Notes under the pieces: generated by a model | Databases searched by the model: none | Told to the model about the DNA's origin: nothing | What the model saw: the letters and a program-made list of their open reading frames with translations, nothing else | Shown: positions 2,860-28,768 of the stretch, piece by piece | Layout of the letters: each line of letters starts with the position of its first letter | Numbering within the stretch: the stretch's first letter is position 1 | Made by a program: the position numbers and the translations under genes | IMG/VR virus record: IMGVR_UViG_3300046777_000727 | Location: 1 to 33,786 of that record | DNA: 33,786 nt | Source of the DNA: a virus | Reading direction: 5' to 3' (one strand)

Positions 2860-5800
2860 CGTACTGCTGTGTATTGTAATGTTACTGTTGTAAAGAATGT
2901 GTATGGATATCCTGTGCCGGTGGTAATAATCTCAAGTCGATGTTCGGCTGTATTCGTTGCCGTATCAATATTGATTGCAAAGTTCACCGTACCAAAACCG
3001 TTATCCTCACTGATTAATATAGCACCTGTTGCAGCGGCTATGCTTCCCACCTTTTGAAGCGTGACCATGTGCAAGCCGTTGTAAGTTGTCTGAGTTGCAA
3101 TATCTGTAACATTGATATGAAGTAGCACCGACCAAAAACTGTCATCGGGCATGCTCAAGTGAACACCCGTATTATCAATAGTCGGTTGAATAATATCTCC
3201 ACTTATGGCCAGTGCATCTTTGCTGCCTAACATGATTATACCGTACTGCGTGCCTCCTTCATTTTGACCGCGATCGTCAAGCTTCCATCCACCGCCAAGG
3301 TGAAAACCACTCTGTGAGGTGAGCACATTTTTGCCAAACATGCTGTTACCGTTTACGGATTCGGTTAGCTTCAAAGTATCACCTACTGCAATCATATTAT
3401 TATTACCGTCAACTATGGATAATTCAACACCTTGTTGTACCGAACGTGAATTACCATCTACCGTTTGCGCTATTACATTGCGGGAGATTGGGTTAGTATT
3501 TGTGCCTGTAATGCCGTTGGTCGGTAAACTACCTTGGTTATTGAATGAATAACACTCACCTGCACTCTCACTCCATGTGTAGCCATATCGCACACAACAG
3601 CTTTGTGTTGCTGCTACTGGGTCGCCATTGCCGTCAATAAAATTAACTGTGCCATTAATGTTGATTGTATCAGGTGTGCTTGCACAGTCCGCTTCACTAT
3701 CGATGTACTTAATCAATTTCACTTTGGTAGATTCAAACATGCCCACCTTGTAATCTGTTATCTCAAGGATACGCCACTGTGCATTCTGAACATGTATAAT
3801 ATCACTAAACTTAAAGGTGAGAATATCGCTAAGGTCAAGTGCAAATGATGCCTCCATAATTCGCGCATTAGGCGAATAAAGTTCATTGAATGCGTTACGC
3901 CAATAGGTGTTGAATAGATTGAAGTATGGATTTGCATTGATAATGAACGGTGGCGTTTCAGGTGCAAAGTTCAAATCATAGTCAGTAATAGTAGCAGTTA
4001 CCGAACTATAATTATTAAGCACAGTAACTCCAAATGCAACAGGTGCTTGAACTCCTATACTATCATCAAATAATTGTATTTGATATGCATTAGCAGCAAA
4101 TAAGGCACGAGGCCCAGGCACTACAAATTCGTTATTATTATTTAGGAATTGCGGAATTGGTATTAGTGTGCCGGGAATATTACCCGCTGGAGTGCTGCGT
4201 GTGACTAATTGCACAGTATTATCACCTTGCACAAACGTGCTAATCGGTACATCAGGATTAACACTATATCCCTCTGCTTTATATTCGCCATATACACGCC
4301 CGTTATCTTTGTAAAGCTTTCCTAAATAATCCTCTCCTGCTGTATAGCTAAATAATGTTTTGGCTTTTTGCAGTTCAGTAGTTGAATAAATGGTAATGTC
4401 TTTACCGATATCTAACTTCTGATTCCAATCTAATACATCGCCACTACCTATATAGCTATTGTATGGCACAATGCTAATCTTATTTGGATTAATTCTATCA
4501 GGTACAATAACGCAATTGTGCATCTTGATAACGTCATTGACAAAATCCGCTTGACGCATATCGGGTGCATTGAGATTGTAGGCTATTGTAGATCCATAAT
4601 TAAATCTTGTACCAACCAATTCTATGAGTGATGAACCTAAGTCACCACTACCTGCTAATATATACACATCAGCTATTCCACTTCCGGCACCTCCAGCATT
4701 TACAATTTCATATCTAAATGCAAATTCAACTGTATCTCCCGCTTCTAGATTCATTCCGTATAAAAAGTCAACAGTTAAATTAGCTGAATAGCCAAAATCT
4801 TCAATAAAAATTGGCGTGCCACCATTGACCCTATAATATATTTTAAAAATAGTGAAATTACCAACGCCCGCGTAATTCAAACTTTGTAATGCTAAAGTGA
4901 AGTGGAATGTATATAACCCACCTCCCGGCGCAGTATATACTCCCGTTGTAGGGTCATAGTCATTATTATTGTCAAACGCTTCCGATACAGGTGCATAATA
5001 TTGATAAGGACTAATAGAGCCACTTGGAGCAAATGGCATTGTAATAGTGCTTGCATTATATGCACGGAAAGCATATTGCGGCCCTAGGTCATCAGTATCT
5101 AAATAGCTTTTATTTATCCATGGCATGTGATAACCCGCTAGGATATTAAGCAATGATGCAGCCTCAAGTTCAAAACCCGCATCTGCTATGATTTGCTCAA
5201 GCAAATAATCCCACCTAAGTGCTGGAGTTAAATCCACAGCATAAAGTGGTGTTGCACTGTTACTGATTCTACGAGTTCCGGCTTGACCTTGCTCACTCCA
5301 TAGCTGCCCTCTATCTACTAATGTCCAAATGCGAGCCGATGTTGTAATTGTTACGTTGTCATATATTACAGTCTCATTTAGGTTAGGCAGGTCTTCAATA
5401 TCCTTCAGTTTCTTTTCACCGATAGCCTTGAATAAATCAGGTGTCTCAGCGTAGAAGGCTAACTCTATCTCATTAATCTTGCCCATCTGTTGATACACTT
5501 TGCGCACGCGGATGTAACCTTTTGCAATGGGCAGCGTATCTACCCGAATTTCAGCGGGTAGTTTGTAGTGGAAAAAGTTGTTTAATCCACCATCATAGTT
5601 CACATCAAATAATGCACCCAGTGCAAGTTGATTGCGATCGCTGTAAGGCACTCTGAACTCACGACTAAATGCGCCTAAGGACGTGAAGTTGTTGAGGTCA
5701 GTATAACGCCAATTCTGCGAGATACTTTCGTTCTCGAAAAGGTCGAGGTAATATTCAGTAGACGCAGGTACTGAACCGTAAAAGTTAAAGGTTATACTTT

Positions 5801-11986: not shown

Positions 11987-12479
11987 ATTCTCTGATTCGT
12001 TTAATTGCTCTGTGAATGGATGTGCGCAGGTAGGCATAGGGTATGCCCGTCTCTTTGCTTAGTTCTTTGTAGTCAAAGTCAGGTTTGGCGTATAAGCGCA
12101 GCAATATTGCGTCAAACTCATTTAGCCGACTGATTGCATTGTACAAATATTCCCCGTCTATAAATGCACCTATCCAAGTCTCATCTGTTTTATTATCTGT
12201 GAAGTCTTTGTCGATGTGCACATCATAGTATTTCTTATAAGTAATAGCGTAATCGCTTCTATTGCTGTGCCATGATAACCATAAAGCCCTATTGACATAT
12301 TGCGCCACCTTACCACCGCAAACTATATCGGTCACATCTTGTGCCGGCCTATCCATTAGCCTGGCGAGCACCTCATGCAACAGGTCGCTGCCTTTGTTTT
12401 GATCGCGAGTGAGGCGTGTAGCCTTATCTAGCCACCCGTTGTAATGCTTTGATATTTCGTAAGTTACGCAGTCTCCCAA
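11940..12479 (-). CDS. Sigma-70-like transcription factor, candidate late gene activator
   Basis: 179 residues. Residues 15-45 (WLDKATRLTRDQNKGSDLLHE) resemble sigma region 2 of ECF-type factors, and 113-170 (LNEFDAILLRLYAKPDFDYK, then ELSKETGIPYAYLRTSIHRA) resemble the region 4 helix-turn-helix. It is the first gene of the minus arm, next to the divergent promoter region, where a late activator would be expected. The first codon is TTG at 12479-12477; no in-frame ATG occurs before about residue 42. A competing ATG at 12490 opens only an eight-residue peptide (MLKFWETA). Sequence similarity is weak but the two-domain order is convincing. Direction of late promoters by this factor is inference. 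Confidence 0.65.
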   Translation of the reverse strand: MGDCVTYEISKHYNGWLDKATRLTRDQNKGSDLLHEVLARLMDRPAQDVTDIVCGGKVAQYVNRALWLSWHSNRSDYAITYKKYYDVHIDKDFTDNKTDETWIGAFIDGEYLYNAISRLNEFDAILLRLYAKPDFDYKELSKETGIPYAYLRTSIHRAIKRIREYVQFQRASSTTTGEA

Positions 12480-12911: not shown

Positions 12912-13220
12912 ATGAATCTACCTATTTTTTTCACTAAGCACATGAACTCAAAGATGACATCTTACGTCATGATTGACCAATCAGGCAAACAGATTGCCGT
13001 TGAATGCAACTATGGTGACTACGCCATAGTAACCGAATCGCACGATGACATCGATAGACCAAACGAGGTGCAAAATATTATCGACCGTGCTAGTCAGCAC
13101 TGGGATGTGAGCATTATCAGCGCCGAAGTATTCATGCACCATTTCAGCGTAGCGCACCGTGAACTATTCTATAACGTTAATCCAGCACTTAGACCACATG
13201 AAGAAAAGCAACTTGGATAA
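12912..13220 (+). CDS. Hypothetical protein (102 aa)
   Basis: The protein begins MNLPIFFTKHMNSKMTSYVM and shows an alternating beta pattern (YVMIDQSGKQIAVECNYGDY) followed by helices (NEVQNIIDRASQHWDVSIIS). Its leader has AATCAATAAATACACAA just before the ATG, matching other early genes. It overlaps the XRE-like gene by 23 bases. I recognise no family. Confidence 0.65.
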   Translation: MNLPIFFTKHMNSKMTSYVMIDQSGKQIAVECNYGDYAIVTESHDDIDRPNEVQNIIDRASQHWDVSIISAEVFMHHFSVAHRELFYNVNPALRPHEEKQLG

Positions 13221-15996: not shown

Positions 15997-16230
15997 ATGA
16001 GTAACTATCAAATGCAAGAGGGTCAGTTCACCCTATTCAAGAACAACAACGTAGCCAACAACGGTCCACAATACACTGGTGAAATCATGGTAGGTGGCAA
16101 GAAGATGCGCCTGGCTGCGTGGGTAAAGGAAGGCAAGAGTGGCAAGTTTTTTAGCGGCAAGATGTCCGAGCCAATGGAGAAACGCCAACACGATGATGAT
16201 TCACAAGGCACAGGCGATTTGCCGTTTTAA
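15997..16230 (+). CDS. Putative small single-stranded-DNA-binding-like protein
   Basis: 77 residues. The body (EGQFTLFKNNNVANNGPQYT, then GEIMVGGKKMRLAAWVKEGK) is a compact beta pattern like a small OB-type or DUF736-like fold. The C-terminus is an acidic stretch ending GDLPF, which closely resembles the acidic tail of bacterial SSB proteins (usually ...DDxPF) that recruits repair proteins. Location after the replication genes fits. The leader carries AATCAATAATTAAATCAATG around the start. The SSB role is inferred from tail and context; the body is much shorter than a normal SSB domain. Confidence 0.6.
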   Translation: MSNYQMQEGQFTLFKNNNVANNGPQYTGEIMVGGKKMRLAAWVKEGKSGKFFSGKMSEPMEKRQHDDDSQGTGDLPF

Positions 16231-16238
16231 AAAAGATT

Positions 16239-16363
16239 AGTCAGGTGGCGGAATGGTAGACGCTAATATGGTATGTAACTGGATACGAATATACTTTGCC
16301 ATATTAATACAATCCAGCAGATAGTATCTGAAGTATATGCAGGTTCGAGTCCTGTCCTGGCTA
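16239..16363 (+). tRNA. tRNA-like element with expanded anticodon and variable region
   Basis: Acceptor strands AGTCAGG (16239-16245) and CCTGGCT (16356-16362) pair fully (one G-T). The D arm GCG-GAATGGTAGA-CGC (16248-16263) and the T arm GCAGG-TTCGAGT-CCTGT (16339-16355) are canonical and of the Leu/type II style; discriminator A is followed by CA, with no full CCA. Between them lie 75 bases instead of about 35-45. The arm AATAT (16265-16269) could pair with ATATT (16301-16305) leaving a 31-base loop, or a second AATAT at 16288-16292 could pair with the same ATATT over an eight-base loop. No anticodon can be assigned with confidence. It ends ten bases before the terL start. Confidence 0.55.
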
Positions 16364-16372
16364 CAAAAGATT

Positions 16373-17671
16373 ATGATTGAGTATCTACCGAAACAAAATG
16401 AAGCACTGCGCGTATTGGGAAATTCACACCCAGCACGTGTGGTGCTTTTCGGTGGGGCAGCAGGTGGTTCAAAATCTTTTATTGGCTGTGCATGGCAGAT
16501 AAGCCGACGGTTCAAGTATCCCGGCACACGAGGACTGATAGGCCGTAGCAAACTTGACACGTTAAAAAAGACCACGCTAAAGACATTCTTTGAAGTAGCG
16601 CATATGTTAGGCCTTGCGCCGAATGAACACTACACGATCAATAATCAAACGCATGTTATAACCTTTGCAAATGGCAGCGAGATAATTCTGAAAGACTTGT
16701 TTGCGTATCCATCAGACCCTGAATTTCATTCACTAGGAGGTCTTGAGTTGACTGATGCGTATGTGGATGAAGCCGCACAGGTATCAAAGCGGGCGATAGA
16801 TATACTCCAGTCCCGCATTCGTTTTAAGCTGCGCGAATTTGATTTGCCACCGAAGATGCTACTCACATGCAATCCGTCCAAAGGATGGCTTTACAATGAG
16901 TTCTATGCGCCACATAAGATGGACAACCTGCCCGCACATCTTGCATTCATTCCATCGCTGCCGACCGATAACCCACACCTGCCCGAAAGCTACATTGAAA
17001 CGCTAGAACGTTTGCCGGAGATTGACAGGCGAAGGCTATTGCATGGTGACTGGGAATACGATGAGAGCGTTGACAATCTGTATCAATACGATGACCTGGG
17101 GCGTTGCTTTCGTGATGAAGAAAGCAAAGGTGAAAAGTATATCAGTGCGGATATCGCACGCCTTGGAAAAGATAGAAGCGTGATATGCGTATGGCATGGC
17201 ATGCACCTGATTGAGATACACGAGCTGCGCAAGCAACCTATCACAACCGTAGTCAGCACCATTCGCCAACTATGCGACAGGCACAGCATCAAACTATCCA
17301 ATGTGATATGCGATGAGGATGGTGTAGGTGGTGGTGTAGTGGATAGCTTAAAATGTAGAGGCTTTCTCAATGGTGGGCGTGCTAAGCAAGCGGATAGATA
17401 CACAAATCAAAAGGCTGAGTGCTATTTCAAGCTTGCAGAATTAATAGAGCAGAACAAGGTCATCTTTAAAGTTAACTCATTCCGGGATGTAATCGTGCAA
17501 GAATTGGACATGATACGCAGGCGGCAACCTGAAGCGGATGGAAAGTTGGCCGTGATCAGTAAGGAGGAAATCGCACGCATGCATGGCAAGTCTCCAGACT
17601 ACGCCGATGCCATTATGATGCGCATGTATTTCGAACTATTCCCGAACTACGGCAGCTATTCGTGGGCGTAA
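16373..17671 (+). CDS. terL: Terminase large subunit
   Basis: 432 residues; cuts and pumps phage DNA into proheads. Walker A is FGGAAGGSKS (26-35), Walker B AYVDEA (129-134), and the coupling motif TCNP is at 165-168. The nuclease domain shows SADIARLGKD (Asp260), ICDEDGVGGG (Asp314/Asp316) and SPDYADA (Asp409/Asp412), as in Terminase_6/PBSX-type enzymes. I take the ATG at 16373 (MIEYLPKQNEALRVL) because the earlier ATG at 16337 lies inside the T arm of the tRNA-like element. Unusually, it sits in the early arm, on the opposite strand from the portal and head genes. Confidence 0.95.
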   Translation: MIEYLPKQNEALRVLGNSHPARVVLFGGAAGGSKSFIGCAWQISRRFKYPGTRGLIGRSKLDTLKKTTLKTFFEVAHMLGLAPNEHYTINNQTHVITFANGSEIILKDLFAYPSDPEFHSLGGLELTDAYVDEAAQVSKRAIDILQSRIRFKLREFDLPPKMLLTCNPSKGWLYNEFYAPHKMDNLPAHLAFIPSLPTDNPHLPESYIETLERLPEIDRRRLLHGDWEYDESVDNLYQYDDLGRCFRDEESKGEKYISADIARLGKDRSVICVWHGMHLIEIHELRKQPITTVVSTIRQLCDRHSIKLSNVICDEDGVGGGVVDSLKCRGFLNGGRAKQADRYTNQKAECYFKLAELIEQNKVIFKVNSFRDVIVQELDMIRRRQPEADGKLAVISKEEIARMHGKSPDYADAIMMRMYFELFPNYGSYSWA

Positions 17672-26457: not shown

Positions 26458-28389
26458 TTATTGATTACCGTAAACTGGATTAGTTGGAAGGAAGCCGTTG
26501 TAAGGCATGTCTTCAGGAAGTTTAGCCACAAGTGAGTTATTACGCACCTTATACCCCATGCGTTCAGCCATACTAACTGCTATTCTTTTTGCATCAGGAT
26601 CATTAGGATTAATCTTCGCACCCTTGGCATCTACATATACTCGCTTTTCCCAAAAGTGTTTGCAGTTACCACCGCCCTTATAAAACCAAACATCGTAAGT
26701 GTCTGCGCCTTCAGGCCCCCATCCGGGATTTACTGCTACATTCTCCATTGACACAATATCTTCTTTGCGGTATAGCTTACCCGCTTCAATCATTTTCTTA
26801 CAGAATGGACGCATATTCTCGTGGGCAAAGCTACCTGCATATACGTAGCGTGTGATAAAGTATTTACCGTCTATAATTGCATCCTGCTCACTCTTTGCAG
26901 CTGGACGTGCCGCACCTGTGCGCACTGCGAATTCATGCTCTATTTCTTCATCAGCATTGTACGCATCAATCAGTAACCAATCTTCGGACGCATCCTCACC
27001 TAGTGCTATTAGCGCATCACCTACTGTGCTATCATCTTTTTTTTTTTCGTCACTCATGATGACTTCTTGCGGTTGCAATGAACCTGCTATAACATCTGCA
27101 AAGATTGCATCCACCACAGCGGGAGGTAATGTTGGGAACGCTGCCCCCACAATTGCCTTTGCACTGCTCACAGGCACAGCACCTGCGCTACTTTGCATTA
27201 CGATGTCAATGAGTGAACTAATCTGCGCACCGTTCAAGGCAGTAGCAGCGACATCAGTTGTAGTGCCTGTTGCTGTCGCATCGGTTACAACCGAAGTCTG
27301 CTCTGCTACTAGAGGGGTATTTGGCACAATCTCAAAAGTTACTCCCGGCATTTGAGGGCTTAGGAGTTCTTCAATACTTGAATTAATCTTTTCTTGATAA
27401 GGTTGAATGACCTGTTTGTTGAATATCTCAAGACCTGTTGCCATTTCATCCTTATTACTACCGAATCCTGATGTCTCTCTGATACCAAATAGCAATGGCG
27501 TAGTAACACGGTGCGCTGTGATAATCTTCTGCTGTGCGGTAGTATCCATAAGTTGATACTGCTTGTCCGCATCATTCACAGGGAATGGAGTAATCTCAGT
27601 CTTGGGTTGGTCACGCTCGTTAAAGAACATCACAACCTTTCCCGCATTACGTGCACCACTCATTTTGTTTTCCCAATCCAACATCATCTGCTGCTTCTGC
27701 TCAGGCGTTGCTTGGCCATTGTAGAAGTTGATAATGGTGGATGGGAAAAGACCGTTTGAAATTTGGTTGATATGGAAGATTGAAATCTGCTTATCTAATT
27801 CAATATAGTTGATAGCAGACCAGTAATCAGGGCGTGGGTAAGTATCGCTGCCTGTGTATGTGAAGCACCAATAGATTTGTCGTGGCTCTTGCTCACGTGT
27901 CAAATAATTGTACTTCGGTATAAACTCAGGGGTATTCTTTTTCTTCCTTGTGTTGCTCCAGTCGTAGCTGTGGTAAATACCTATTTCGCTTTCGTCCTCT
28001 TGGTTGATAGCTATGCGGCATTCTTCAAATGGAATGGCTGTAAGCTTGCTAATTACACTACGATCGTTTGACCAAATAACTTCAATGAAGAAACCACCGA
28101 ACAACTTAAGGTCATGCGCACAAGCATACGTCAAAGTATTTACATTCAGTGCGTCAAGTTCCGCTTGGTATTGGTCAGACTTAATACCCTTCCCGGCTAT
28201 CATGTCACCGATGGCAACAACCAAACTACCGTGAACGGGCGATTCATGCGACAAGTCACGCAAGTACTGCGGGAAGTCGTTTTGGTCACCGTAGTTAATC
28301 CATCCCTTCCTGTCTACTTTTTCAGCATCGCTCTTTGCTACGTATTCTGATAGCTTAAGCGATACAATATTGCTTTCGTTATGGTTCAT
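26458..28389 (-). CDS. Portal protein with a C-terminal Cys/His domain
   Basis: 643 residues. Residues 1-350 are portal-like (GWINYGDQNDFPQYLRDLSH, then KLFGGFFIEVIWSNDRSVIS, then PLLFGIRETSGFGSNKDEMA), forming the twelve-subunit DNA channel. After an Ala/Thr-rich linker (TDATATGTTTDVAATALNGA) and a charged KKKDDS tract, residues about 510-600 carry RPFCKKMIEAGKLYRKEDIV, GWGPEGADTYDVWFYKGGGN and CKHFW. In related phages this last domain often accompanies minor head proteins. It holds Cys/His positions that could bind zinc. The gene overlaps the upstream gene's end by 11 bases. Confidence 0.8.
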   Translation of the reverse strand: MNHNESNIVSLKLSEYVAKSDAEKVDRKGWINYGDQNDFPQYLRDLSHESPVHGSLVVAIGDMIAGKGIKSDQYQAELDALNVNTLTYACAHDLKLFGGFFIEVIWSNDRSVISKLTAIPFEECRIAINQEDESEIGIYHSYDWSNTRKKKNTPEFIPKYNYLTREQEPRQIYWCFTYTGSDTYPRPDYWSAINYIELDKQISIFHINQISNGLFPSTIINFYNGQATPEQKQQMMLDWENKMSGARNAGKVVMFFNERDQPKTEITPFPVNDADKQYQLMDTTAQQKIITAHRVTTPLLFGIRETSGFGSNKDEMATGLEIFNKQVIQPYQEKINSSIEELLSPQMPGVTFEIVPNTPLVAEQTSVVTDATATGTTTDVAATALNGAQISSLIDIVMQSSAGAVPVSSAKAIVGAAFPTLPPAVVDAIFADVIAGSLQPQEVIMSDEKKKDDSTVGDALIALGEDASEDWLLIDAYNADEEIEHEFAVRTGAARPAAKSEQDAIIDGKYFITRYVYAGSFAHENMRPFCKKMIEAGKLYRKEDIVSMENVAVNPGWGPEGADTYDVWFYKGGGNCKHFWEKRVYVDAKGAKINPNDPDAKRIAVSMAERMGYKVRNNSLVAKLPEDMPYNGFLPTNPVYGNQ

Positions 28390-28768
28390 AGATTATATCA
28401 TTTGGAATGGTATCGGTCGGCACATCGAACCATTGAGTGTTATCTTGCAGCACAACGTAACCACGCTCCACAATGCCAACAACAGCGGCATTGGTTGGGT
28501 TAGTATTGACTGCTGAGTTTTGCCCGTACACTTCGTAGCGATATCTGCCCGCTAATGTAAGGCCAACAGTTGTAACTGTCAACTGTGTAATGCGCACATT
28601 CTCATTTGCAATCACCGCCACCTGTGCTAGCTTATTACCAGTGGTGCTATTCTCTTCGTGTGTGAGAATGAAAAGGTAGTTGGTGAATGCTGTGCTGTAA
28701 TACTGTCGCGCCTCATCTAGCGAAAGATAGATAGTCTGATTTGCTTGATTGACGTTTAAGTATATCAT
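28379..28768 (-). CDS. Putative virion protein (129 aa)
   Basis: Begins MIYLNVNQANQTIYLSLDEA and is beta-rich (YLFILTHEENSTTGNKLAQV, then RYRYEVYGQNSAVNTNPTNA). Proteins with this MxYLxxNQ start are common among structural genes of Bacteroidota phages. It lies between the putative tail tube and the portal and overlaps the portal start by 11 bases. A decoration or tail role is possible; no motif decides it. Confidence 0.55.
   Translation of the reverse strand: MIYLNVNQANQTIYLSLDEARQYYSTAFTNYLFILTHEENSTTGNKLAQVAVIANENVRITQLTVTTVGLTLAGRYRYEVYGQNSAVNTNPTNAAVVGIVERGYVVLQDNTQWFDVPTDTIPNDIIYEP

Follow-up and report, generated by a model that had tools for sequence, protein, structure and literature searches.

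How does a gene with the ends of a tRNA come to stand directly before terL without an anticodon arm, and what would its product do there? The question is raised by positions 16239-16363 of the window, by which we mean the whole of IMG/VR virus record IMGVR_UViG_3300046777_000727 (33,786 bases), whose TerL shares 47% identity with the TerL of Flavobacterium phage 11b. Comparison with other viral contigs places the element in a large family of tRNA-like elements (TLEs) carried by viruses, in which a tRNA body surrounds a centre that is only rarely an anticodon arm. The explanation that we favour, on balance and from sequence comparison, is that such elements specify non-decoding and probably trans-acting structured RNAs carried in a natural tRNA scaffold and moved by the exchange of modules.

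The element and its setting

The element lies between an ssb-like gene and terL, on the same strand as terL and with its end 10 nt before the terL start (Table 1). That start is most likely ATG 16373; the longer terL open reading frame that opens at 16337 runs across the T arm of the element. The acceptor, D and T arms are all present, and the Rfam tRNA model (RF00005) scores the element at 33.1 bits against a cut-off of 29, with a large insert in the alignment where the anticodon arm would stand. U8, A14, G18G19 and the T loop are as in canonical tRNA, and the nested minimum-energy fold of the element leaves the three arms intact. The CCA end is not encoded, the bases after 16363 being CAA. 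An anticodon arm (a 5-bp stem and 7-nt loop with U33) is absent from 16239-16363, where ARAGORN run without introns makes no call. With introns allowed, as the initial annotation had proposed, ARAGORN does make calls, Gly or His, but these conflict with one another, contain a 40-nt 'intron' and have a mismatched stem. The coordinates and arm sequences of that annotation were reproduced, helices A and C proving slightly longer at 8 bp each. Elsewhere in the window, at 28374-28462, ARAGORN calls a tRNA-Pro(tgg) that has no Rfam support, is antisense to minus-strand open reading frames and is probably spurious.

Table 1. Features of the window in and around the tRNA-like element
Feature	Position	Strand	Sequence, pairing and basis
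ssb-like gene (phrog_18154), upstream of element	15997-16230	+	match to phrog_18154
Acceptor stem, 5' strand	16239-16245	+	AGTCAGG, partner 16356-16362; Rfam tRNA alignment, family-wide pairing, compensatory acceptors elsewhere
Leu-like D arm	16248-16263	+	GCGGAATGGTAGACGC; D stem GCG/CGC (16248-16250/16261-16263), A14, G18G19; Rfam tRNA alignment
Exchangeable centre, 75 nt, replacing the anticodon arm	16264-16338	+	100% identical in L082-L085; in L023, L086 and L097 this locus has unrelated centres
Helix A, 8 bp	16264-16306	+	TAATATGG (16264-16271) pairs with CCATATTA (16299-16306)
Helix B, 6 bp, crossing A and C	16279-16317	+	CTGGAT (16279-16284) pairs with ATCCAG (16312-16317)
Helix C, 8 bp	16289-16338	+	ATATACTT (16289-16296) pairs with AAGTATAT (16331-16338)
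Helix C, family-wide register	16291-16298/16329-16336	+	ATACTTTG pairs with TGAAGTAT; stops 2 nt short of the T stem
Small hairpin	16318-16330	+	CAGAT-AGT-ATCTG; cannot fully coexist with helix C in its family-wide register
T arm	16339-16355	+	GCAGG-TTCGAGT-CCTGT; Rfam tRNA alignment
Acceptor stem, 3' strand, and discriminator A	16356-16363	+	CCTGGCT + A; sequence
terL	16373-17671	+	likely start ATG 16373; relatives without the element begin here, MIEYLP

A family with constant ends and many centres

The ends of TLEs are nearly constant, comprising the acceptor AGTCAGG/CCTGACT, a Leu-like D arm, and ACAGG and CCTGT on either side of the T loop. The AGTCAGG acceptor was itself the search criterion, so its constancy is partly selected; the T arm ACAGG/CCTGT stood outside the first pattern, the source of most loci, and was required, with few mismatches allowed, in later scans. 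The loci examined hold 184 five-prime halves (at most 4 substitutions), and 167 of these are followed downstream by a matching T arm and 3' acceptor. Between these ends lie 138 distinct centres, 23-140 nt long with a median of 55 and mostly unrelated to one another; the elements as a whole mostly measure 64-190 nt. Non-canonical centres were also found within other acceptors by a scan blind to the scaffold (e.g., AGCAAGA/TCTTGCT, ATTAAAG/CTTTAAT and AACCGAG/CTCGGTT). Two families of related centres are referred to below, F1, present in 26 contigs of 4-271 kb, and F2, with 10 sequences on 5 acceptor scaffolds.

A canonical anticodon arm occurs in 3 of the 138 centres (shuffle mean 0.7, maximum 5). 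Two elements of contig L131 that have the same scaffold carry plausible anticodon arms (13031-13101, Lys ttt, 66.3 bits; 12058-12129, Ile gat, 48 bits); since good arms do occur in a few such elements, some may decode, and the scaffold may serve real tRNAs too. Another candidate, LR745206.1 (H21), has the appearance of an ordinary tRNA and was rejected as a TLE. Several TLE copies per genome are common among the DNA phages, and one phage (L207) has 12 of them beside ordinary tRNA genes, two tRNA-Leu genes among these; ordinary tRNA-Leu is likewise encoded by the TLE phage L106.

The pattern of the 5' half was matched in at least 119 stretches in viral contigs and in 5 stretches in a collection of 84,980 species genomes. 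In whole-genome searches, three of those five metagenome-assembled genomes (MAGs) contain the exact 3' half, on one contig each. Of 294 genomes in the family to which one Chitinophagaceae MAG belongs, only that MAG has this exact 3' half. The exact 3' half is present in 11 of 16 viral records, on one strand per record, and the reversed pattern gave no matches there. By these counts the TLE family is essentially confined to viral records. The hosts of TLE phages are probably Bacteroidota, and two of the five MAG contigs point to Chitinophagaceae. Among cultured phages, two TLE queries gave partial matches only, mostly to the T arms of ordinary tRNAs among the matches listed; an F2 query gave no match, and an F1 query four partial matches, all to tRNA-Gln. 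One TLE query had no match among plasmids.

In the part of the literature that could be searched, no account of such elements was found. Work on huge phages reports tRNAs from tRNAscan-SE, and the term 'tRNA-like' is absent from its main text (PMC7162821). Finders of tRNA genes miss TLEs or report them as odd tRNAs with assorted anticodons, and Rfam has only its general tRNA model for them.

The scaffold as an RNA fold

An alignment of the ten F2 sequences contains 13 pairs changed on both sides, against a shuffled mean of 6.1 and with none of 500 shuffles as high. These compensatory pairs comprise six of the seven acceptor pairs, five in a centre helix and two in the T stem. All 12 loci in which the F2 core was found have a tRNA scaffold around it. 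Insertions in the D loop precede the conserved GG, or its position, in L248, L249, L259, L260, L262, L264 and L266, and because of this placement the tRNA elbow would be kept. The 15-48 pair is mostly A15 with U48, and four of the six elements that have G15 have C48; the 3-70 pair is U-A or U-G. One F2 centre (L261, 311-408) is housed in a scaffold that has C73 and an additional G ahead of position 1, the kind of end found in tRNA-His. At the level of aligned sequences, these compensatory changes show that the tRNA scaffold of TLEs is held.

Predicted pseudoknots in place of the anticodon arm

Read 5' to 3', the arms of the three helices in the window centre run A B C A' B' C', such that all three are mutually crossing. 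Three mutually crossing Watson-Crick helices of at least 6 bp arose in 17 of 20,000 dinucleotide shuffles of this centre, in keeping with the proposal in the initial annotation of a tRNA-like element with a pseudoknot and no anticodon arm. The collection holds no diverged relative of the window centre (a 16-mer search gave 22 stretches, with a TLE in the four already known only), and the triple crossing in the window therefore rests on the shuffle test.

The architecture can also be judged from the family, for which centres were grouped into 115 clusters on shared 12-mers, 9-mers having chained unrelated centres together. A helix with its 3' strand ending 2 nt before the T stem is present in 42 of the 115 clusters (8.9 +/- 2.8 in shuffled sequence), and one ending 3 nt before it in 30 clusters (8.2 shuffled); at the threshold used, 73 clusters are without the shared helix in its commonest register. 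Scored for complementarity, the 5' segment and the loop of this T-stem-proximal helix average 11.16, compared with 9.90 +/- 0.33 for shuffles, none of 300 of which reached that value. On average, then, the predicted architecture of the centre is that of an H-type pseudoknot, to which the window centre conforms in its crossing helices and in a helix that ends about 2 nt before the T stem. Element by element the signal for a pseudoknot partner appears modest, with 11 of 49 elements scoring at least 14 where 5.9 were expected, and one shuffle set reaching 13, the maximum. Within F1, a single compensatory pair was counted, which 44 of 500 shuffles matched, a covariation signal too weak to be of use. 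Helix A is nearly invariant in both F1 and F2, and for this reason covariation does not test it. The F2 centres are 44-47 nt long and are largely filled by two predicted pseudoknot helices. Collectively, these comparisons show the centres to be distinct modules, with a structure predicted from their helices.

Exchange of centres between phages

The window centre is 100% identical in four other contigs (L082-L085). Between the window and the 62-kb contig L082, 131 nt (16238-16368) align at 98.5% identity; their other long match is a single phosphoesterase gene, at 67%, and two more short matches are accounted for by a second TLE. L084 and L085 are almost duplicates of L082, all three coming from one distinct phage group; they thus represent one independent case, and L083 a second. 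In L083 the centre is identical to that of the window and the upstream DNA is unrelated (51%). The converse is seen in L023, where at the terL locus the upstream sequence (95%), terL (90%) and the two scaffold ends (92% and 88%) are all closely similar to those of the window, and the centres are 43% alike, the chance level for unrelated sequence. Since centres and flanks match separately, modules and sites must be inherited separately. These patterns show that modules are exchanged between phages, with boundaries at the ends of the element.

The site before terL is itself variably occupied. A TLE stands directly before terL in eight of 80 close TerL relatives (L023, L055, L056, L060, L061, L067, L074 and L075), each with a centre different from that of the window. 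In most of the TerL relatives without a TLE, the upstream stop codon overlaps or abuts the terL start.

A proposed trans-acting RNA and the alternatives

In the mechanism that we propose, the tRNA body (acceptor stem, D arm, T arm and elbow) would serve as a scaffold, with the pseudoknot in the place of the anticodon arm. The transcript ends would be trimmed by the tRNA enzymes of the host (RNase P and 3' tRNase) to give a stable small RNA, in which the pseudoknot module would be the working part, acting in trans and most plausibly binding a component of the host or of a competitor. Recombination through the near-identical ends would swap modules. The longest antisense matches of 129 centres to the phage's own genes are no longer than those of shuffled centres; with this, the dispensability of the element in most close relatives and its transfer between phages, the role of an accessory effector fits. 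A further proposal, which we put forward tentatively, is that phages of uncultured hosts carry an arsenal of RNA effectors on tRNA scaffolds, the modules of which bind different host or rival components (of defence or of translation) and are swapped like anti-defence genes.

The main rival to a trans-acting effector, and a distinctly less probable one, is a tRNA mimic directed against a tRNA-directed defence or at translation. In one version the tRNA body would be bound or charged (the D arm is Leu-like and position 73 is A) and, having no anticodon loop, could not be cut there; in another the pseudoknot would imitate an anticodon paired with mRNA, and the RNA would enter the ribosome. The intact acceptor, elbow and T arm, the mostly A-U and sometimes G-C pair 15-48, the presumably His-like end of one scaffold and the replacement of the anticodon arm by pseudoknots would all suit a mimic. 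A mimic does not, however, explain the diversity of the centres, their conservation within families or their exchange as modules. A second rival would act in cis on the terL transcript, as a processing signal of the kind known as tRNA punctuation or as a switch, and would account for the position and strand of the window element. An ORF starts within 30 nt downstream of 36 of 136 TLEs, compared with 41 of 270 canonical tRNAs, a weak excess that leaves room for a cis role. A role of this kind for terL, which the initial annotation had entertained, is nevertheless unlikely: 72 of the 80 close TerL relatives have no TLE directly before terL, the identical element in L082, L084 and L085 adjoins an unrelated small ORF downstream, and punctuation alone gives no reason for centre modules to be conserved across scaffolds.

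Three further readings would make the element an ordinary tRNA, a mobile DNA or a relic. That it is a Leu-like tRNA with a small intron, the removal of which would yield a normal anticodon arm, seems very improbable. The Leu-like D arm, the calls made by ARAGORN when introns are allowed and the anticodon arms of some elements with the same scaffold speak for splicing; against it, those calls disagree in the window and restore no canonical arm from their mismatched stem, the canonical arm is near chance frequency among the centres, the short F2 centres leave no room beside their pseudoknot helices for a 17-nt arm, and the TLE phages L207 and L106 also possess ordinary tRNA-Leu genes. An intron-bearing tRNA was accordingly rejected for most members. 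The earlier suggestion of a tRNA with an insertion falls short, the anticodon arm being replaced across a family whose different centres number at least 138. If the element were mobile DNA, with inverted repeats at its termini and only a chance likeness to tRNA, it would move with boundaries at its ends, as observed, and would have the 7-bp inverted ends; the compensatory acceptor and T-stem changes between scaffolds, however, select for RNA pairing and not for a fixed recognition sequence, and the placement of D-loop insertions before the conserved GG keeps a tRNA elbow. Such a mobile element is largely ruled out and has a very small probability. Least probable of all, and in fact refuted, is a tRNA gene decayed by mutation, which the initial annotation had weighed as a degenerate copy of a clean standard tRNA. 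It would explain the lack of a functional anticodon, but the arms are intact, relatives carry other intact centres and the family is large. Indeed, the identical copies of the centre in four other contigs, together with the other sites at which they stand, indicate that the element is neither a decayed tRNA nor a dedicated control element for terL.

Relation to known tRNA-like RNAs

With canonical tRNAs (RF00005; the class II tRNA-Leu and tRNA-Ser), TLEs share the acceptor, D and T arms, U8, A14, G18G19 and the T loop. They differ in that crossing helices replace the anticodon and variable arms, in that centres are unrelated between members and in that these phages encode ordinary tRNAs separately. 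The closest concept is that of the bacterial Y RNA YrlA, which has a tRNA-like domain (PMC7790460) and is a non-translating RNA in which such a domain is joined to another, effector-binding module. The centres of TLEs are, unlike YrlA, hypervariable; the scanned TLE loci gave no Rfam match to YrlA, no rtcBA/rsr operon was noticed, and neither was a gene for a Ro60/Rsr protein among 18 distinct window ORFs scanned. The Ro60-binding helix motif, in what we take to be its form, is present in none of the 138 TLE centres.

A tRNA-like end is also combined with pseudoknots in tmRNA, the alanine identity of which lies in a G3-U70 pair. In contrast, TLEs have a D stem, lack the alanine G-U at 3-70 and are mostly 64-190 nt long, and neither ARAGORN nor Rfam called a tmRNA in the loci scanned. 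In the engineered tRNA scaffold used for recombinant RNA, a passenger RNA replaces the anticodon arm and the rest of the tRNA body is left intact; TLEs have their module in the same place, but are natural and phage-borne, with modules exchanged by recombination. Viral mimicry of tRNA with pseudoknots is likewise known from the tRNA-like structures of plant viruses and the IRES pseudoknot of dicistroviruses. These belong to RNA genomes, with the pseudoknot elsewhere or the mimicry partial, whereas TLEs are genes of DNA phages, often several per genome.

These elements point to a large class of tRNA-like RNAs that are non-decoding and borne by viruses. Should the modules act on targets in the host, phages would have in them a weapon that consists of RNA. 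Because the scaffold is constant, members are easy to find, and they lend themselves to standard tRNA biochemistry.

Additional observations at TLE loci

At the junction before terL that the TLE occupies in the window, L009, L040 and L042 have another insert, which resembles a small coding sequence and is flanked by similar AAAAAAGATTA / AAAAGAT motifs.

A hairpin of 5 bp with the loop GAAAGA, or a close variant of it, lies just upstream of TLEs in L055, L083, L106, L111, L145, L162 and others. Its stems covary (GCTCG/CGAGC, GCTTG/CAAGC and CCTCG/CGAGG), and in 22 of 27 occurrences it is found 3-5 nt before the start of a TLE or tRNA, whereas a control with permuted loops gave two hairpins, neither of them before a TLE. 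It is possibly a leader or processing element.

The D loop may be a second site of exchange. The same or nearly the same hairpin insert (about GGTGGTGTCCATCCTCG) is present there in L249, L262, L264 and L266, and because it recurs with different centres, D-loop inserts may also be exchangeable. In L152 (about 4300-4400), the D loop of a TLE holds a second, smaller tRNA-like insert, with the acceptor AACCCCGT/ACGGGGTT, a T-arm-like hairpin and GTTAAC repeats on its flanks.
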